From the NCBI RefSeq assembly GCF_029910235.1, contig NZ_CP112874.1, positions 1,240,001-1,304,000 of the forward strand: DNA of 64,000 nucleotides. Direction: 5' to 3'. A program made the translations under genes and the position numbers. Shown in pieces: positions 1 through 7,412 of this stretch; within the stretch, counting starts at the first letter, position 1, and every line of letters starts with the position of its first letter. Origin of the DNA: Pseudanabaena galeata CCNP1313 (GTDB lineage: Bacteria > Cyanobacteriota > Cyanobacteriia > Pseudanabaenales > Pseudanabaenaceae). Below the pieces are notes generated by a model that saw only the letters and a program-made list of their open reading frames with translations, made no database searches and was not told the DNA's origin.

Positions 1-76
1 AACCAAGAAAAAAATTGACGAATTTGGCAGCTCATTAAATCTAGATCCTATTGTTTTTGAAATTGCTAAAAATTAA
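1..76 (+). CDS. C-terminal tail of an unidentified protein (partial)
   Basis: Frame 2 is open from the window edge to a TAA at 74-76 and encodes 24 residues ending in IAKN. The gene would start outside the window and converge with the ArsR gene, overlapping its stop by a few bases. The tail is too short for a family call. It could also be chance, since only about 25 codons are visible. Confidence 0.35.
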   Translation, partial: TKKKIDEFGSSLNLDPIVFEIAKN

Positions 77-408
77 CTCTGGCAAAGATTTGAACTGTTT
101 TTTGAACTGTTTTTTGAACTGTCTGTCGATCCACGAGTAGAACTGCATAGCATCAGCAACTCTGTATCAATGACTCGATAAAATCGCCACACACTCTCAC
201 GCCGACAGGCTACCACTCCCGCATCCTTCATCAATCGCAAATGCTTTGATACATTGCCTTGATGGAGTCCAGTGCGATCGCAGATATCCTGAACACTGCG
301 CTCTTGATTACAAATTGCCATCAGAATTTGCAAACGGGTTGGATCTGACAAAGCACGGAATCGATTTGCCAGAGTTTCCAATTCACTAGGATTGAGGGTG
401 ATATCCAT
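73..408 (-). CDS. ArsR/SmtB-family HTH repressor
   Basis: This 111-residue protein is a winged-helix repressor of the ArsR family. The family core runs from FRALSDPTRLQIL (about 17-29) through the recognition helix HQGNVSKHLRLMKDAGVV (about 49-66) to the wing. Cysteines at 33, 43, 68, 88 and 109 could sense thiols, sulfide or metal, but I cannot assign a sensor pair. It lies 40 bases downstream of the SQR gene on the same strand, the arrangement known for sulfide-responsive ArsR proteins (SqrR, BigR, SuoR), so sulfide control is a fair inference. The C-terminal tail is low-complexity (SSKNSSKNSS), encoded by a 12-bp tandem repeat at 89-124. Confidence 0.85.
   Translation of the reverse strand: MDITLNPSELETLANRFRALSDPTRLQILMAICNQERSVQDICDRTGLHQGNVSKHLRLMKDAGVVACRRESVWRFYRVIDTELLMLCSSTRGSTDSSKNSSKNSSNLCQS
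89..124. repeat. 12-bp tandem repeat, three units, in the ArsR tail
   Basis: The unit TTTGAACTGTTT is present three times without a gap (the last unit has one change). It is in frame and codes the repeated SSKN tail of the ArsR protein, so copy-number change would lengthen or shorten the protein by four residues without a frameshift. Confidence 0.8.
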
Positions 409-448
409 GTCTGCTCCTATTCAAAATTAGAGTAAAACCCATTCCTAT

Positions 449-1753
449 TCATGCTCTAATTTGAACTGCTTCAGGTTCTGGGATCGGAATAATTGGCTCC
501 ACTAATGGCAACCCGATCGCCTTAAAACCAAGCTTCTCAAACCAAGGAATCGTCCAACCAAAGCGCATTTTCGTGAGAAAATATTTCTCAAATCCAGCTT
601 TCATCCAAGACACCCAGATCCCGTGATAGATCAAAGCGCGTTTGCGATCGCCTGACGCATTAGGCAAAAGCGGATCGGCTAAAAATAGCGCTCCTGTATT
701 CCCAAAATCGGCAAAGCAAATCGCTTGTAAGGTTGGTCTGCACTGATTACCAGTAGAGACTCCTAACTCTAGGGCAATATTCTGGGCGATCGCCAAAGCC
801 ATTTCTTCCGACATCAATCCCACCTTGGGCGCACCCGTAGGAATTGGCGTTTGCTCCACGGCTTTAAGTTGGGTGACTACGCCGACAGAATAAATTGAAG
901 TAAATTCTGGATGGCGATAGGTCGGCAAGACAGGCACAAAACCTTTGACATCAGTTAATCCGACCGCTTCACGGAGAAACTTGGGTCCTCGGAAAGGCGG
1001 TAACACCATTGTAAATTTAGAAGGAATCACGCTCCCATCAACCAAATGCACAGCATCAGATTCAAAATGGGAAATAGCCGTATTTTCCATCAGCTCGATT
1101 TCCCGATCTGCCATAAATTTACGCATCAGCCAGCGTGAGCTTGCCATACCGCCGATGCCTAGATGTCCTGCATAGGGTTCAGAAGTAATGAAAGTGATTG
1201 GAACTTGCGATCGCAGTCCTTTTTTCTTCAATTGATCATGGATCAAAAAAGCAAACTCATAGGCGGGACCAAAACAACTCGCTCCTGGGGACGCACCCAC
1301 CACGATCGGTCCTGGATTCTCTAAGAATTGCTCCCATGCTTCACCAGCTAACACTGCATGATGTGGATTACAAATTGATTGGGTATAGCCACCTTCGGGT
1401 CCTAATCCCTTCAGAGCATCCAAGGCAAGTTCAGGTCCCGTGGCAATTACTGCATAGTCATAGTCCAATGTGCGATCGTCGCCCATCTTGATCTGACGCA
1501 ACTTTGGATCGATCGCCGTGACTGCTGCATGAATAAACTCAATGTCATGCTTAGCAACAGTTTTTGCTAAATCCAATTGAATACTATCAAGGGATTTTAA
1601 TCCTAGCGCCACCCAAGGTAGAGAAGGCACAAAGGTAAACTTTGGTTGATTGGAAATAAGCGTGATCTTATGTTCACGGGGTAATACATGCCTCAACTCG
1701 TAAGCAGCAGGTAAACCTCCTAATCCAGCGCCAATCACAACAACGCGAGCCAT
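449..1753 (-). CDS. sqr: Sulfide:quinone oxidoreductase-like FAD flavoprotein
   Basis: The 434-residue protein begins with an FAD-binding Rossmann motif (VVVIGAGLGGLPAAYEL, about 4-20) and has a second conserved stretch GPIVVGASPGASCFGPAYEF near 148-167. Cysteines at 128, 160 and 346 match in spacing the three catalytic cysteines of known SQRs. SQR oxidises sulfide at the membrane surface and passes electrons to quinone. The ATG at 1753 is preferred over an upstream in-frame codon because an AGGAG ribosome site lies just before it and the protein then starts where family members do. A DUF2892 gene lies upstream and an ArsR gene downstream. A related flavocytochrome-type dehydrogenase or type II NADH dehydrogenase is less likely given the cysteines. 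Confidence 0.85.
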   Translation of the reverse strand: MARVVVIGAGLGGLPAAYELRHVLPREHKITLISNQPKFTFVPSLPWVALGLKSLDSIQLDLAKTVAKHDIEFIHAAVTAIDPKLRQIKMGDDRTLDYDYAVIATGPELALDALKGLGPEGGYTQSICNPHHAVLAGEAWEQFLENPGPIVVGASPGASCFGPAYEFAFLIHDQLKKKGLRSQVPITFITSEPYAGHLGIGGMASSRWLMRKFMADREIELMENTAISHFESDAVHLVDGSVIPSKFTMVLPPFRGPKFLREAVGLTDVKGFVPVLPTYRHPEFTSIYSVGVVTQLKAVEQTPIPTGAPKVGLMSEEMALAIAQNIALELGVSTGNQCRPTLQAICFADFGNTGALFLADPLLPNASGDRKRALIYHGIWVSWMKAGFEKYFLTKMRFGWTIPWFEKLGFKAIGLPLVEPIIPIPEPEAVQIRA

Positions 1754-1841
1754 AATCTCGACTCCTAAAAAAATAAATTTATAAAAATTTTTAATAAATG
1801 CTCCTAGTGTGAGGATGGTGCAAAGCACTATCCTCATACCT

Positions 1842-2060
1842 TCACTCTCTCACTCCTAATTTTTGCAGTACCACAATCAACGGACACCAGTTGGTAAAAG
1901 CCGATTGCAGCAAGTTTAGTCCGACAAATGCAGTCAAAAACAGCCAATTGACATTAATCAGCGATAGAGACAAGCTGAGCAAAACCATACTGCCTGCGAC
2001 TAAGCGCAACCACTGCGATTGATTCCAAGATCGGTTACTACTAATCATCGGTTTCTGCAT
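1842..2060 (-). CDS. DUF2892 (YgaP-type) small membrane protein
   Basis: This 72-residue protein has two hydrophobic segments (about 18-36 and 40-55) followed by the conserved NWCPL turn. This fits the DUF2892/YgaP membrane domain, which often accompanies rhodaneses and sulfide-metabolism genes. It ends 88 bases before the SQR start on the same strand and probably shares its transcript. Function is unknown. A second family member lies at 5262-5483, upstream of the Rieske gene. Confidence 0.75.
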   Translation of the reverse strand: MQKPMISSNRSWNQSQWLRLVAGSMVLLSLSLSLINVNWLFLTAFVGLNLLQSAFTNWCPLIVVLQKLGVRE

Positions 2061-2165
2061 TGAGCTTTTGACATTAATAAAATGATTATATCACTATACA
2101 GTAATTTAGTTGATAAATTGAAATATTTTGAAACATACTCTCGCAGCATTTTATGAAAACACCAG

Positions 2166-2768
2166 TTATTGCGTTATTTGATCTCTTTGCGAATCTCGAA
2201 TAATACTGATTCCACCCCAAACAACGAGACTTGCGATGCTCAATCCAATAATCAAATCAGGAAATCGGGAATTTAATAGATTTACTAGCAAACCTGCGAT
2301 AATCACACTAAAATTTGCGATGACATCATTCTGAGTAAATATCCAGCTTGCTCGCATATGTACTTCACCTTGACGATGCTTTGAGAGTAGGTACAAACAA
2401 TAACTGTTCACAATAAGTGACAAGAGAGCAATTGCCATCATCCAGCCTGATTCTGGAGAGCTTCCCCAGACAAACCGTCGAATTACATCAAGGACAACCA
2501 TCACCGCTAATGTGATTTGAAAAATGCCACTTAGAGTCGCGGCTCGATTCTTGTAATGCGCTGATTTACCAACTGCGTAAAGTGAAATTGTGTAAACCGA
2601 AGCATCGGCAAACATATCTAATGCGTCTGCAATCAGGGCAGTAGAATGCGATATAGTCCCTGCCACAATTCCAAGTACAAACATTATGCTATTAAGCAGT
2701 AATAAAATCCGCAGAGTTTTACGCTCCGCTTTATTCTTTGCCTCCATGTGACATCCACAGTCCGACAT
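2166..2768 (-). CDS. CDF-family cation efflux transporter, short form
   Basis: The 200-residue protein has about six hydrophobic segments and the cation diffusion facilitator signature: ALIADALDMFADAS in the second helix (Asp48, Asp51, Asp55) and FTQNDVIAN in the fifth (Asn147, Asp148). It lacks the cytoplasmic C-terminal domain of longer CDF proteins. The N-terminus has a Cys-Gly-Cys-His cluster (residues 4-7) that could bind metal. The likely role is export of a divalent cation; the substrate cannot be read from sequence. It is co-directional with the SQR genes about 100 bases downstream. Confidence 0.75.
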   Translation of the reverse strand: MSDCGCHMEAKNKAERKTLRILLLLNSIMFVLGIVAGTISHSTALIADALDMFADASVYTISLYAVGKSAHYKNRAATLSGIFQITLAVMVVLDVIRRFVWGSSPESGWMMAIALLSLIVNSYCLYLLSKHRQGEVHMRASWIFTQNDVIANFSVIIAGLLVNLLNSRFPDLIIGLSIASLVVWGGISIIRDSQRDQITQ

Positions 2769-2863
2769 TGTTGCCTCGCTTGTTGTTTTAGCTTTCTTAA
2801 ATAATTATGGCAATTTGTAGCCTTTGCCTCGCAAAAAATTGTAGTGCTTTATCGCACAATACA

Positions 2864-2964
2864 TAGCTCACCATAATTAAAACCTAAAACCAGAAGCTGT
2901 CCCGCCCGCTATGCGGGCAGGACAGCTTTCTAGGTTTTGCGTTTACTTATGCCTAGCTACTTAT
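2864..2964. repeat. Palindromic MITE-like repeat, family A
   Basis: A long hairpin (AGCTGTCCCGCCCGC stem) is bounded by AAAACCT/AGGTTTT and by outer sequence ending in CCTAGCTACTTAT. An almost identical copy in reverse orientation lies at 7535-7638, and shorter copies at 26440, 55383 and 58662. It fills the gap between the CDF gene and the NifX-like pseudogene. Confidence 0.85.
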
Positions 2965-2970
2965 AACGCA

Positions 2971-3384
2971 TTAATTTCCTTTGCACCCGCAATTACCTTT
3001 GTGGTCATCTTCTCCACCAAGAGCATGTTCCGCCTCATGGTCGCGATCGCGTTCCTCTTGAGTTTTCACAATTAGTGAACCCGCAAGATAGGCTGTTATG
3101 GCAGCATCGGGATCGATTTCAGGGGTGACAATGGGCTTGATACCTTTGGATTCTATACGGCGAGACAAGCCATTGCCCATACTGCCACTAATCAGTACCT
3201 GTACATCGTCCAAGGGATGTGATTCTTTAGGAGAGCTTTCATGGAAGCTTTGGGCTTTAGTAAGTTGTAAAAGCTGTTTATTTTGAATAAATATGTCATC
3301 CACATCGTAGATTCAGAATTTCTGGCAATGTCCGAGATGTCCTGTTACGTTGGTTTGGTTTTGGCTAGATACGGCAATTTTCAT
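2971..3384 (-). pseudogene. NifX/NifB-like (FeMo-cofactor domain) protein, broken by in-frame TGA
   Basis: Reading from the ATG at 3384 gives a normal family start (MKIAVSSQNQTNVTGHLGH), then TGA at codon 24, then continued homology in the same frame (IYDVDDIFIQNKQLLQL, and later VQVLISGSMGNGLSRR). Family members usually have Trp at this position (KFWIY), so a TGG to TGA change is the simplest explanation. The C-terminus carries a His/Cys-rich tail (GNCGCKGN). Restart from a GTG at 3303 would give a 110-residue protein lacking the first beta strand. It lies between the CDF gene and the rogue psbA. Readthrough or a sequencing error are alternatives. Confidence 0.7.
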
Positions 3385-3436
3385 TAAATAGTTCCTATTC
3401 TTTGTTTGTTAGTTGATGTTATGTGAAAGTTTCTAA

Positions 3437-3530
3437 GACCCTCACCCCTCGCCCCTCTCCCAAAAGGGGCGAGAGGAACAAGAGTTGGTCTTACTTCGCC
3501 CTTCATGGGAGAGGGGGCTGGGGGGTGAGG
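3437..3530. repeat. G/C-rich inverted repeat between psbA and the NifX-like gene
   Basis: The arms CCCCTCTCCCAAAAGGGG and GGGAGAGGGGGCTGGGGGG flank a short spacer. This is a common type of cyanobacterial intergenic palindrome; related ones lie at 7288, 14577, 23795 and 27478. It probably separates the psbA message from the downstream genes. Confidence 0.6.
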
Positions 3531-3560
3531 GCAATCTTCGTTCTATGTAACATCAGTTGT

Positions 3561-4634
3561 TTAGGCAGAAATATCAGGAGATGTCAGAGCCAATGGAACT
3601 GGGAAGTTATGTCCATTGGGCGATCGCATGACTTCAATTCCAATATCTGCCCGATTAAGCAGATCGGCATGAGTGCGAATTGGACGACCAGAATCATCTA
3701 AAATCGATTGTTGGAAATTAAAACCATTGAGATTAAAGCTGATTGCGCCGATACCTAAAGCGGCAAACCAAATTCCAATAGTGGGTAATGCGGCTAATAG
3801 AAAGTGGGTAGTCCGACTATTCCGCAGAGATAGTGTGGGAATCAGTAATCTACCTAAATAACCACTGTGGCTAGCAAGCAGATTATAGGTAGTTTCTTCT
3901 TGACCAAATTTATAGCCGAGGTTAGCTGATTCAATCTCTGTAGTTTCGCGAATTAGGCTCGAAGTAACGAGAGAGCCGTGGAGCGAACTCAAAAGCGCAC
4001 CACCCAAAATTCCCGCTACTCCAAGCATATGGAACGGATGCATCAAGACGTTATGCTTGGCTTGGAGCGAGAGCATGAAGTAGAATGTCCCCGAAATTCC
4101 CAAAGGCATTCCTTCAGAAAAGCTTCCTTGCCCGATGGGGTAGATGAACAGTACGGCGGTGGCGGCAGCAACGGGAGCAGAAAAGGCTACGGCAATCCAA
4201 GGACGCATTCCTAAGCGATAGCTCAATTCCCATTGCCGACCAAGATAAGCCCAAATGCCAATCAGAAAATGAAACACGATCATCTGATAAGGACCACCAT
4301 TATAGAGCCATTCATCAATGGAGTCGGCTTCCCATAATGGATAAAAATGCAGCCCGATCGCTGCCGAAGTTGGCACGACAGCAGCAGTGATCATGTTGTT
4401 ATGCGCCATCAGCGATCCAGCGATGGGAACGCGAATACCCTCCATATCGACAGATGGAGCATTGGCGATCGCTAGTACAAACACGATCGCTGCCACGAGC
4501 AATGTGGGAATTGCAAGAATACCGAACCAGCCTATATATAGACGGTTGCTGGTACTTGTAATCCAGTCAGAAAAGACTTGCCAAGAATTTACTGGGTCAA
4601 GCTTTGACTGTTTCGGAAAGATATAAGTTGTCAT
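3561..4634 (-). CDS. psbA: Rogue (sentinel-type) photosystem II D1 protein
   Basis: The 357-residue protein aligns with D1 over its whole length: five membrane helices, Yz tyrosine (Tyr165), chlorophyll ligand His202, non-heme iron ligands His219 and His277, and a QB-site Ser269. The water-oxidation site is degraded. In canonical numbering Asp170 is Glu, Glu189 is Lys, His332 is Arg, Glu333 is Ser and Asp342 is Pro; Asp61 is Glu and Glu65 is Val. His190, His337 and Ala344 remain. This is the pattern of rogue D1 proteins, thought to give PSII that cannot evolve O2. It is not ChlF: positions 130-131 are Gln-Trp, not the Gln-Asp reported for chlorophyll f synthase. It lies 101 bases downstream of a Rieske gene. 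Confidence 0.93.
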
Positions 4635-4735
4635 AATTATTACTCTTTGTCAATACAATTCAATAGTGAATAGAATGTAACTGAACTGAGAAGTTTAAAA
4701 AGACTGCAATTAGTGATACTAAATGTGGAGATGTC

Positions 4736-5272
4736 CTATACCCACCAAGGCTGCTTACCAGTTCGAGGATCGGTGTCTGTCCATGGCGAGATCAAAATTT
4801 TGTTGTCAGTTACTGCAACTTTGACAATCTTAAGCGGTAGAGGAGCGGGACCACGCACCACGGTTCCATCAGGCGCATAGAGAGAACCGTGACAAGGGCA
4901 TTGGAACTGTTGATCCAGAGGGTTCCAAGGAAAGGTGCAACCGAGATGGGTGCAGTTATCGACAATGCCGATGTTATCGAGAGTGCGATCGGCGGTGACA
5001 ATCAGATAGGTGGGTTCACCTGCCAATCCCGCAACTAGAGCGCGAGTTTCTGGTGGCTCAGCCAAGAGTTGTGTAGCAGGAATAACTTTGCCTAAGATAT
5101 CCTTAGCAAGAATAGCACCACCTTCGCCAACAGCTTCCGATGGTGGAACGAAGAAATTACCAAAGGGATAGAGTGCCGATCCTGTGGTCACAGCGATCGC
5201 TGATCCTGTGATGAAGTTTAGTAATTGCCGCCGCGACAGGGACGGACTTTCTAAGGGAAGACTATTTTCCAT
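4736..5272 (-). CDS. petC: Rieske iron-sulfur protein, PetC paralogue
   Basis: This 178-residue protein has the PetC layout: an N-terminal Arg-Arg stretch and one membrane helix (about 15-45), then a soluble Rieske domain. Box 1 CTHLGC (107-112) and box 2 CPCHGS (125-130) supply the 2Fe-2S ligands (Cys107, His109, Cys125, His128) and the disulfide pair (Cys112, Cys127). It would carry electrons from quinol to cytochrome f in the b6f complex. Its start overlaps the end of the DUF2892 gene by 11 bases, suggesting translational coupling. Linkage to rogue psbA and SQR suggests a condition-specific PetC rather than the housekeeping copy (inference). Confidence 0.9.
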   Translation of the reverse strand: MENSLPLESPSLSRRQLLNFITGSAIAVTTGSALYPFGNFFVPPSEAVGEGGAILAKDILGKVIPATQLLAEPPETRALVAGLAGEPTYLIVTADRTLDNIGIVDNCTHLGCTFPWNPLDQQFQCPCHGSLYAPDGTVVRGPAPLPLKIVKVAVTDNKILISPWTDTDPRTGKQPWWV

Positions 5273-5483
5273 GAAGAGACTCGGTAGCTTTATTGGTACG
5301 AATTCCTAGAAGTTGATAAAGCCCACAAAAGCCCATTAGAGCAGTTACCAGCATTACGCTACTCATCACAACTAGACCAATTCCTAATCCAGTACCGCCA
5401 TAAAGGAAAAAGCCTAAATAGAACAATCCAGCAGCCAATAACAAACGAATCAGGCGATCAACTGTGCCAACATTTGTGTTCAT
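5262..5483 (-). CDS. DUF2892 (YgaP-type) small membrane protein
   Basis: The protein has 73 residues from the ATG at 5483, which follows a GGAG ribosome site. An in-frame extension to 5528 exists but has no such site. The sequence NVGTVDRLIRLLLAAGLF and two hydrophobic hairpin helices are typical of DUF2892. Its last codons overlap the start of the Rieske gene, so the two are probably co-translated. It is a distant paralogue of the gene at 1842-2060. Confidence 0.8.
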   Translation of the reverse strand: MNTNVGTVDRLIRLLLAAGLFYLGFFLYGGTGLGIGLVVMSSVMLVTALMGFCGLYQLLGIRTNKATESLHGK

Positions 5484-5782
5484 AAAGGTAATCTCCAATT
5501 TTAAACAAATTGCAAAAACTTGCAGCAATATTGGAAGACTTAATTCTTGAAGTATTGCAATATTTTTTGTAATCTACTTCAATATAACTTATTAGTAATA
5601 TAATTAAACAAGATTAGTCTTAAGACTATGTTAAATTTAAGCTCTACAAGGCTCGAACCTTTTACTAGCTATAGGCTCCAGTCTTTTAGCCGTCCATCGC
5701 AATCAGATGATTCATCGTAAAGAACTATATGATTTCAGTACAAGTCATCTAACTCACACGGGAGGTTATACATCAGGATGTC
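5484..5782. promoter_or_regulatory. AT-rich upstream region of the DUF2892-petC-psbA unit
   Basis: This stretch contains no gene. It should hold the promoter of the minus-strand DUF2892-Rieske-psbA unit. Near 5523-5563 there is an inverted arrangement of GCAATATT and ATTGCAATATT, and near 5580-5602 a repeated AATATA motif, both plausible repressor sites. No promoter boxes can be assigned with confidence. Confidence 0.3.
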
Positions 5783-5926
5783 ATGCTGATTTTGGTTCGG
5801 AACTACCTTATCCATGTCGCGATCAATATGGTGGTAATGGGTCTGTTTGGTTGGCAAGCCCTGACTGGCATCCAAACTGTCCAGAATATTTTAGCTTCGA
5901 TGAATGCACCATTTGCTCAATTATGA
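5783..5926 (+). CDS. Possible small membrane peptide (47 aa)
   Basis: An ATG at 5783 preceded by AGGA opens 47 codons ending in TGA. The product is mostly hydrophobic, with one likely membrane helix around NMVVMGLFGWQALTGIQ and a short polar tail. The reading frame looks protein-like, more so than the overlapping frame, which is rich in Cys, His and Gly. No family is recognised. It lies between the divergent DUF2892 gene and the convergent MFS gene. It could be a remnant of a larger gene. Confidence 0.35.
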   Translation: MLILVRNYLIHVAINMVVMGLFGWQALTGIQTVQNILASMNAPFAQL

Positions 5927-5946
5927 CAATGTAAAGGGTTTTCCAC

Positions 5947-7209
5947 CTAGTCTTGCTGGTTGGAAACAAGCTGGTGGGGCGATCGCTTAAGCATTAAATT
6001 TGCCGCCAGAATACCAATAATTGCCAGTACCGCCATGGGATAAAAAACATAGGTGTAATTACCAAACAAATCACGAATTTGTCCAGCTATTAAAGTACCG
6101 ATCAGAGCGCCAACTCCATAGGCGGTAAACACTAGCCCGTAATTTTGAGCATATTGATTGGGATTGAAAAATTGCAAAGTAATCGTAGGAGCCATAGCTA
6201 ACCAACCGCCAAGATTGAACCAAAACAGACAAAATGCGATCAGGTAAGTGGCGACCTGTCCCTTTTGAGCGCCGATCATCATCAATGAAGCAATCAAAAT
6301 CAAGGTATAGGAAGAGATCGCTACATAATGCGGTTTAATGCGATCGCATAGCCAGCCAAACAGAGGACGACTAAGACCATTGAATAGTGCAAATAAAGAC
6401 ACGCTGCTAGCGGCTAAAGCAGGATTGATTTGAATCACCTCTTCTCCGACAGAACTGGAAATCCCGATCGCACTCAATCCCACTAAACTGGCGATCGCAT
6501 AGCAAATCCACAACCCATAAAATGAGCGACTTTTTAAAATTTGCGCGGGATAGTTGATTGCTTGAGTAGAGGCAGAACTAGTTGAAGCTTGCCGAGGATG
6601 CCAGTCCTTTGGTGGTGGTTTGAGCATCGTAGCGATCGCCAAAATAATTACCATAAAAACAATTCCCAATATCCTCAATGTTGGCTTGATACCATACACA
6701 GTAATTAATTGATTTGCTAAGGGAGCTGTGATTAATGGAGAAAGTCCAAAACCGATAATTGTCAAACCAACCGCTAAGCCACGTTTGTCAGGGAACCATT
6801 TTGCTACCACTGCCATCGGAACACCATAGGCGATCCCCACTCCTGACCCCACAAATACGCCATAGGTAAGAATCATCATCTCAATACTACCAACTAAGCT
6901 AGAGAGAATGTATCCTAAACCAACAATAATTCCACCGATGGTAGCGATCGGGCGCATACCTAGACGCGGAATATAAAAACCTGCAATCGGCATCAGGAGA
7001 GCGTAAAAAACTAGCGCCACAGTGTAGGGTAATAGGCTTTGAGTAGCGGTAATTCCCAATTCTGCTTCCAATGGCTTTCTAAATATGCTCCAAGTGTATA
7101 TATTCCCCAAACAGAGTAAAATCATCATCCCCAGGGGAATCAGTAGCCATCGCCCTGTTTCGGCGGGTATTCCCAATACGGTTACATTTGAATGATTGTT
7201 GTCAAGCAT
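5947..7209 (-). CDS. MFS transporter, oxalate/formate antiporter (OFA)-like
   Basis: This is a protein of about 420 residues with twelve predicted hydrophobic segments. The first helix carries GNIYTWSIFRKPLE, typical of the OFA group of the major facilitator superfamily; later loops have RPLFGWLCDR and YGVGALIGTLIAGQI. OFA members exchange small carboxylates, but the substrate cannot be read here. The ATG at 7209 is chosen over an in-frame TTG at 7239; neither has a strong ribosome site. It is co-directional with the DUF2892-petC-psbA unit, separated by about 460 bases. Confidence 0.8.
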   Translation of the reverse strand: MLDNNHSNVTVLGIPAETGRWLLIPLGMMILLCLGNIYTWSIFRKPLEAELGITATQSLLPYTVALVFYALLMPIAGFYIPRLGMRPIATIGGIIVGLGYILSSLVGSIEMMILTYGVFVGSGVGIAYGVPMAVVAKWFPDKRGLAVGLTIIGFGLSPLITAPLANQLITVYGIKPTLRILGIVFMVIILAIATMLKPPPKDWHPRQASTSSASTQAINYPAQILKSRSFYGLWICYAIASLVGLSAIGISSSVGEEVIQINPALAASSVSLFALFNGLSRPLFGWLCDRIKPHYVAISSYTLILIASLMMIGAQKGQVATYLIAFCLFWFNLGGWLAMAPTITLQFFNPNQYAQNYGLVFTAYGVGALIGTLIAGQIRDLFGNYTYVFYPMAVLAIIGILAANLMLKRSPHQLVSNQQD

Positions 7210-7261
7210 AAAGTATTTGTAAATAAGTTGGAGTAGCAAAAGAAAAATATAAGAGTGAGCT

Positions 7262-7412
7262 TAAGAAGCCATTTAAGAATTGTCTAGATCCCCCCCCAGC
7301 CCCCCTTAAAAAGGGGGGAGAATTATCTTCTTCCCCCTTTTTAAGGGGGATTGAGGGGGATCTTTTAGTTTTTTTATACTAAAAAGTAATTCTTAAATAG
7401 TTTCTAAGAAGT
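7262..7412. repeat. MITE-like element with ATTTAAGAATT terminal repeats
   Basis: About 150 bases are bounded by imperfect inverted ends (AAGAAGCCATTTAAGAATT at left and the reverse of TTCTTAGAAACTATTTAAG at right). An inner palindrome of CCCCCCTTAAAAAGGGGG type is present. A second copy lies at 27431-27584. It sits upstream of the MFS gene. Confidence 0.75.

Follow-up and report, generated by a model that had tools for sequence, protein, structure and literature searches.

A group 2 rogue psbA with its own Rieske gene beside sqr in Pseudanabaena: a candidate photosystem II variant for sulfide-fed photosynthesis

Introduction

Rogue D1 proteins were reportedly described by Murray in 2012, by Cardona in 2015 and by Wegener in 2015. 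Their role in the native host is poorly understood, and an involvement in nitrogen fixation is the usual proposal. The groups of rogue D1 are laid out in PMC4773611 and the origin of these proteins is treated in PMC8047818. The absence of the C-terminal LDLA motif has been named as a mark of rogue D1 (PMC9640542). Cyanothece PsbA4, supplied as sole D1 to Synechocystis 6803, did not support photosynthesis (PMC9640542). Rogue D1 has been linked to nitrogenase (PMC11304991), and rD1 is mentioned together with nitrogen fixation in PMC12694226.

A second line of work concerns sulfide. Rogue psbA genes near sqr, the gene for sulfide:quinone oxidoreductase (SQR), have been published (Grim and Dick, 2016), and psbA of groups G2/G3 lies close to sqr in 15 genomes (PMC5061849). 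A group 2 psbA is present in the sulfide-tolerant Leptolyngbya hensonii (PMC5776472). The gene petC2 flanks type I sqr and is raised at low O2 (PMC11304991). In Pseudanabaena FS39, the apparent plastoquinone affinity of SQR is at least 100 times that of photosystem II (PSII), and the authors proposed a different type of D1 (PMC5156726).

The locus described here lies in a window of 64,000 nucleotides, i.e. the whole stretch of DNA that was analysed, from Pseudanabaena galeata CCNP1313. It shares the published closeness of psbA and sqr and adds a Rieske gene of its own, an upstream block, a terminator-like hairpin and two copies in one genome. In Thermostichales, PetC2 is encoded beside type I sqr (PMC11304991), whereas a rogue psbA and a nifX-like gene stand between the two in the window. 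No description of a petC2-psbA-nifX cassette or of the K189/R332 pair was found in the main-text passages of open-licence papers covered by the search. The cassette, the charge-inverted manganese site predicted from its D1 and the association with sqr over nif are added here.

Gene cassette and neighbours

Along the direction of transcription the genes are ordered YgaP-like, Rieske, rogue psbA, NifX-like, cation diffusion facilitator (CDF), short YgaP-like frame, sqr and arsR. A second copy with the same neighbours is located on a 175-kb contig of the same genome, termed C4. The features are:

5810 to 5917, plus strand: remnant of a divergent DUF4079 gene, much longer in C4, L023, L024, L025, L215 and L241
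5510 to 5564, minus strand: conserved upstream block, holding AATACTTCAA, with strong conservation across the six Pseudanabaena copies
5262 to 5528, minus strand: YgaP-like membrane protein, first cassette gene, ATG start likely near 5483
4736 to 5272, minus strand: PetC2-like Rieske protein of cytochrome b6f, NCBIfam PetC cut-off passed
3561 to 4634, minus strand: rogue (group 2) psbA by sequence, D1 of 357 amino acids with Mn ligands lost and QB pocket altered, ATG start, full length
2971 to 3384, minus strand: NifX/NifB-like protein (137 amino acids in the C4 copy), in-frame stop at codon 24, where C4 has tryptophan
2894 to 2928, minus strand: terminator-like hairpin just 3' of nifX, 16-pair stem and T-rich tail
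2166 to 2768, minus strand: CDF, also in the C4 copy and in L024
1840 to 2059 (approximate), minus strand: short frame between CDF and sqr, YgaP-like in appearance by eye
449 to 1837, minus strand: SQR, likely true start near 1753
73 to 408, minus strand: ArsR/SmtB-family regulator 3' of sqr

The Rieske protein has 47% identity to the other full-length PetC of the genome and 61-80% to its matches from other genera among the genomes drawn from the phylum. We call it PetC2-like, a name that agrees with PMC11304991. The neighbouring SQR has the solved SQRs 3hyv (3.8e-103) and 3sz0 (8.5e-101) as its best structural matches and aligns with them over most of its length, including three cysteines, and we take it by resemblance to be type I-like. 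Owing to the stop at codon 24, the nifX-like gene of the window is probably a pseudogene or encodes an N-terminally shortened protein. A CDF gene was not detected in the cassettes of L023, L025, L215 and L241. Beside the DUF4079 remnant, a rhodanese-like gene remnant begins at 5910, and an MFS gene at 5947-7239 passes the NCBIfam cut-off for an L-lactate transporter.

Given the hairpin after nifX, petC2-psbA-nifX may be transcribed on its own, separately from sqr-arsR. A single operon reaching from petC2 to arsR is correspondingly weakened. Strong hairpins occur at the equivalent place in L023, L024 and L215, a weaker one occurs in L241, and no comparable hairpin was found after nifX in L025. 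The conserved block at 5510 to 5564 is a possible promoter or operator of the cassette. The word AATAYTTCAA is present upstream of the cassette in 7/7 copies and upstream of sqr in 6/10, compared with 6 occurrences in 148 kb of other genome sequence (both strands); it was chosen after looking at the sequences, and a shared operator is therefore only a lead. Sigma-70-like sites in positions 1-6000 are fewer than in shuffled sequence (5 versus a shuffle mean of 12.5). From the position of arsR, we infer a control by sulfide via ArsR.

Donor side of the D1 protein

The product of the frame at 3561 to 4634 matches Pfam Photo_RC with 2.2e-85. It scores 574.6 bits with the NCBIfam psbA model, just below the cut-off of 596.05. 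Residue numbers follow L006, the canonical D1 of this genome. A sequence-only reading of the window had listed the substitutions D61E, E65V, D170E, E189K, H332R, E333S and D342P, and the residues Y161, H190, H198, H215, S264, H272, H337 and A344 as kept; comparison with L006 agrees at every one of these positions. N181Y and R334P are further changes, presumably located on the donor side as well. D61 and E65 are not known as direct Mn ligands. Among the seven D1 ligands of the Mn cluster, D170, E189, H332, E333 and D342 are changed, H337 and A344 are kept. Positions 341-344 read VPLA instead of LDLA. Eight residues past A344 had been taken for a C-terminal extension, mistakenly, as the canonical D1 of the genome carries 16 there.

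Six Pseudanabaena sequences were compared. Position 65 is V, A or S among them and position 189 is K or R; with R at 332, two Mn-ligand positions are positively charged. Judged by sequence, the Mn4CaO5 site of the Pseudanabaena D1 is stripped and charge-inverted, and we infer that the charges at 189 and 332 block metal binding. All six keep Y161, H190 and the histidines of P680 and of the iron without variation. Position 130 is Q in 6/6, a residue found also in 8/30 canonical sequences. A position was called invariant if at least 95% conserved in 30 canonical or group-3-like sequences; between positions 12 and 344, 32 of 217 such positions are altered in all six Pseudanabaena. By region, 5/15 are changed in 325-344 and 4/23 in 163-191. 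Residue counts refer to 30 canonical rows, one row with masked letters being left out. Sequencing error is rejected as a cause: the same sites are altered in six sequences from five genomes, with dN/dS of 0.026-0.088.

Acceptor side

The quinone side of the window D1 carries E244T, F255L, I259L, F260I, Q261P, Y262T, A263L and F265L. In region 225-272, 11 of 41 canonical-invariant positions differ in all six Pseudanabaena. The single residue described as inserted before the QB loop is a serine between H252 and G253; an insert after H252 is shared by 6/6 Pseudanabaena and 17/17 other rogues, and is found in 0/30 canonical sequences. The sequence-only reading had described a dismantled oxygen-evolving site together with intact charge-separation and quinone residues. 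The first two parts stand, the last does not: by sequence comparison, a remodelling of the QB/bicarbonate side had been overlooked. H252 and S264 are retained in the Pseudanabaena rogue D1, so QB reduction may still work.

Placement among D1 groups

The window D1 is, by its sequence, the group 2 'rogue' or 'sentinel' D1 of a Pseudanabaena, and no new family. A tree with canonical, rogue and ChlF sequences had been proposed as a check of the reading, and in it the window D1 groups with the rogues, away from canonical D1 and ChlF. This first tree was built from 58 of the 113 distinct sequences: 31 selected canonical rows and the 27 that lack the C-terminal motif of canonical D1 (23 rogue rows, L022 as an intermediate, one ChlF-like and two D2). 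The six Pseudanabaena sequences group together (100/100), and their stem branch measures 0.48 changes per site. Of the 23 rogue rows, 21 belong to the wider group that contains them (94/86), with L018 and L041 outside; a single clade of all 23 was not rejected (AU p 0.364). In a second tree of 51 rows, the OEC and QB columns were removed, and ChlF, L041, L034 and L020 (long branches) and D2 were excluded. All 20 remaining rogue rows fell on one side of a branch (97/96). The rogue grouping is thus no product of shared OEC and QB losses. Placement in the canonical clade, named beforehand as the contrary outcome, did not occur. Forcing the Pseudanabaena rows to canonical D1 was worse by 27.2 and 16.3 log units; the AU test leaves the canonical side formally possible (p 0.068 and 0.099).

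Like other group 2 rogue D1s, the window D1 has lost E333 and D342, carries R334P, Q261P and the insert after H252, and has no LDLA. Among the 17 other rogues, E333 is lost in 17/17, R334P is present in 17/17 and D342 is lost in 17/17; E244 is lost in 16/17, Q261P is found in 16/17 and D170E in 13/17. Unlike the window D1, these proteins have other residues at 189, 332, 65 and 342, and mostly no S264. K or R at 189 occurs in 6/6 Pseudanabaena and 0/17 other rogues, where E, D or Q is found instead. R at 332 shows the same distribution (6/6 and 0/17), 15 of the others keeping H. E65 is lost in 6/6 and 0/17, respectively. H at 74, F at 159 and P at 342 are also specific for the Pseudanabaena clade (each 0/17 in the others), and S264, retained in Pseudanabaena, is A or G in 16/17 other rogues. 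As far as the aligned sequences tell, E189K/R, H332R, E65V/A/S and few others are the only clade-specific changes among the rogue D1s compared, a set from which Cyanothece 51142 PsbA4 itself is absent.

ChlF, the super-rogue D1 and chlorophyll f synthase, has lost Mn ligands as the window D1 has, and the ChlF-like sequence L133_8386 also carries R332. A QD motif is the mark of ChlF. An identity with ChlF was rejected in a comparison with this one ChlF-like sequence, which stands on a separate long branch: the window D1 has LG at 127-128, L133_8386 has QD. Two observations concern other rows. Some rogue D1s (L020/L027, L106/L136, L138) stop at position 343, without A344. The L022 (G368) D1 combines the full set of C-terminal ligands with 61L, 170E and a QB loop like that of the rogues; located near the base of the canonical side, it is perhaps an intermediate form.

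Copies in the genome and selection

Among the best 80 loci of the collection scan, the nearest named relatives are Pseudanabaena. The genome has eight D1/D2-like places, comprising two rogue D1s, five others and one D2-like. The two rogue D1s are 97% alike, and the five others are 68-70% identical to the window D1. DNA identity between the window and C4 is 98.7% in 1-3416 and 91.5% in 3558-5798, the level switching abruptly between psbA and nifX. This step suggests that the sqr part alone has been exchanged or replaced. The interval between psbA and nifX (3417-3557) is a C-rich, inverted-repeat-like stretch (CTCACCCCCCAGCCCC...) for which C4 gave no match; it resembles a dispersed repeat. At 1-3757 of C4 (L011), a further psbA is accompanied by a gene that by eye is heme oxygenase-like and by the end part of a distant SQR-like gene, a set resembling a low-oxygen gene group. 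Among plasmid records, from which those of the own or a very near genome may have been excluded, none of the 30 that match covers 80% of window 1-7300; 17 match the D1, none above 80% identity.

Pairwise dN/dS of the six Pseudanabaena rogue D1s is 0.026-0.088 in 15/15 pairs (NG86); the protein is maintained under purifying selection. With the charge-separation residues kept and the D1 under selection, the earlier view that a specific function is likely gains support.

Distribution

At E<=1e-168, a threshold that can miss more distant rogue D1s, this D1 was found in 6 of 38 genomes of the family and, at the same threshold, in 7 of 386 genomes drawn from the phylum. The rogue psbA tracks sqr and not nifH. 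The cassette adjoins sqr-arsR in all six carriers among the family genomes; sqr (E<=1e-90) is present in 12/38 genomes, including the six carriers, and nifH over the cut-off in 10/38, including three of the six. Fisher p for carriage is 0.0003 for sqr and 0.31 for nifH, uncorrected for kinship in a set of few, related genomes. The six sqr-bearing non-carriers have sqr and an arsR-like gene. Neither petC2, rogue psbA nor nifX was found in their fetched flanks, of which L236 is a short contig and L235 has a psbA-like fragment of unassigned type at the very edge.

PetC2-like Rieske matches (E<=1e-58) occur in 34 of the 386 drawn genomes. In flanks of up to 10 kb, retrieved for all 36 PetC2-like places, sqr (at least 45% identity) is near 10 and a psbA-like gene near 13, 3 of which are rogue. 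Outside the genus, a PetC2-like gene is near 4 of 17 further distinct rogue loci, and sqr is near three of these four. In Pleurocapsales LEGE 10410 (L136), where sqr is also close, and on a Stanieria plasmid (L138), the PetC2-like gene comes immediately before the rogue psbA. In the two Leptolyngbya loci, L026 and L037, about 4-5 kb separate the rogue psbA from petC2, and an sqr is in the vicinity. The other 13 of the 17 loci have neither PetC2 nor sqr in the fetched flanks, some of them short. Taken over 24 distinct rogue loci, 13 are without PetC2 and 14 without sqr in the fetched flank (some short), and the link to sulfide is hence not general to rogue D1.

Proposed function and alternative explanations

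The locus probably encodes a sulfide-mode variant of PSII, which would perform no water oxidation and compete poorly for plastoquinone, while SQR feeds cytochrome b6f and photosystem I. Together with D2, CP43 and CP47, the rogue D1 would form a PSII that assembles but binds no cluster and makes no O2. By forming salt bridges with E61/E170 and CP43 residues, K or R at 189 and R at 332 may occupy the vacant metal site. The altered quinone side (E244T, the extra residue after H252 and the change of QYASF to PTLSL) would lower the plastoquinone affinity or turnover of PSII, which would then stop competing with SQR for the pool. SQR, encoded in the next gene unit, would transfer sulfide electrons to plastoquinone, and a b6f complex carrying the PetC2-like Rieske protein of the cassette would pass them to photosystem I. 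The rogue PSII would hold the place of active PSII, and O2 would be avoided in sulfidic cells.

More tentatively, Pseudanabaena may possess a complete alternative cassette for photosynthesis: a D1 with inverted charge and reshaped QB side, plus a separate Rieske protein, would turn PSII and b6f into a dedicated sulfide-mode chain, and this D1 would be a candidate cause of the very low apparent plastoquinone affinity of PSII in FS39. The rogue psbA is a named candidate for the proposal in PMC5156726 of a relation between D1 type and the sharing of the plastoquinone pool by oxygenic and sulfide-driven photosynthesis. Polysulfide increases transcripts of psbA and petC (copies unspecified) in Synechococcus 7002 (PMC12466478). 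Against the sulfide mode, Pseudanabaena SQR transcripts were not observed in a low-O2 sulfidic mat (PMC8651085). Phormidium pseudopriestleyi tolerates sulfide, and only group 4 D1 was reported from its incomplete MAG (PMC8002359); by this case, a rogue D1 is not needed for sulfide tolerance. Pseudanabaena offers a clean test of the role of rogue D1, since the gene tracks sqr (6/6 carriers) and not nifH (3/6), and has a Rieske gene of its own.

A general D1 for microaerobic or anoxic conditions is a rather unlikely alternative. At low O2, PSII centres would be assembled but silent, and sulfide would be incidental. The increase of petC2 beside sqr at low O2 (PMC11304991) fits such a role, as do the psbA genes of other than rogue type that accompany 10 of the 36 PetC2-like places, two of them incomplete or unclassified, and the additional psbA, heme oxygenase-like and SQR-like genes on the C4 contig. 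However, the cassette stands beside sqr-arsR in every carrier of the family genomes searched, and six other sqr-bearing family genomes are without it.

Somewhat less likely still, the rogue D1 would be a sentinel for N2 fixation that takes the place of normal D1 in darkness or when O2 is low and spares the nitrogenase, its closeness to sqr reflecting a low-oxygen island. A sentinel role has been proposed for Cyanothece PsbA4 and other rogue D1s (PMC9640542, PMC11304991). The host has nifH over the cut-off, and a NifX/NifB-like gene belongs to the cassette. Three of the six carriers, each rated 99% complete, are nevertheless without nifH over the cut-off, which weakens N2 fixation as the sole reason; seven nifH genomes are without such a D1 (E<=1e-168), and sqr is beside the D1 gene in 6/6. 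Deletion of psbA4 in Cyanothece 51142 resulted in slightly faster growth without added nitrogen (PMC9640542).

A photoactive centre, in which YZ and P680 would oxidize sulfide, polysulfide, Fe or Mn in place of water, is improbable. Non-water donors for alternative D1s have been discussed (PMC5061849), as has Mn oxidation (PMC8047818), and the invariance of Y161, H190 and the P680 and iron histidines under strong selection would suit them. However, the sequence reveals no donor site, the QB side is altered, and SQR is already able to supply the pool from sulfide. The idea of a decaying, functionless gene kept by linkage to sqr can draw on the stop in the adjoining nifX-like gene of the window copy and is barely credible, the pseudogene reading of the rogue psbA being ruled out by its dN/dS, with full length in all six sequences and two copies in the genome.
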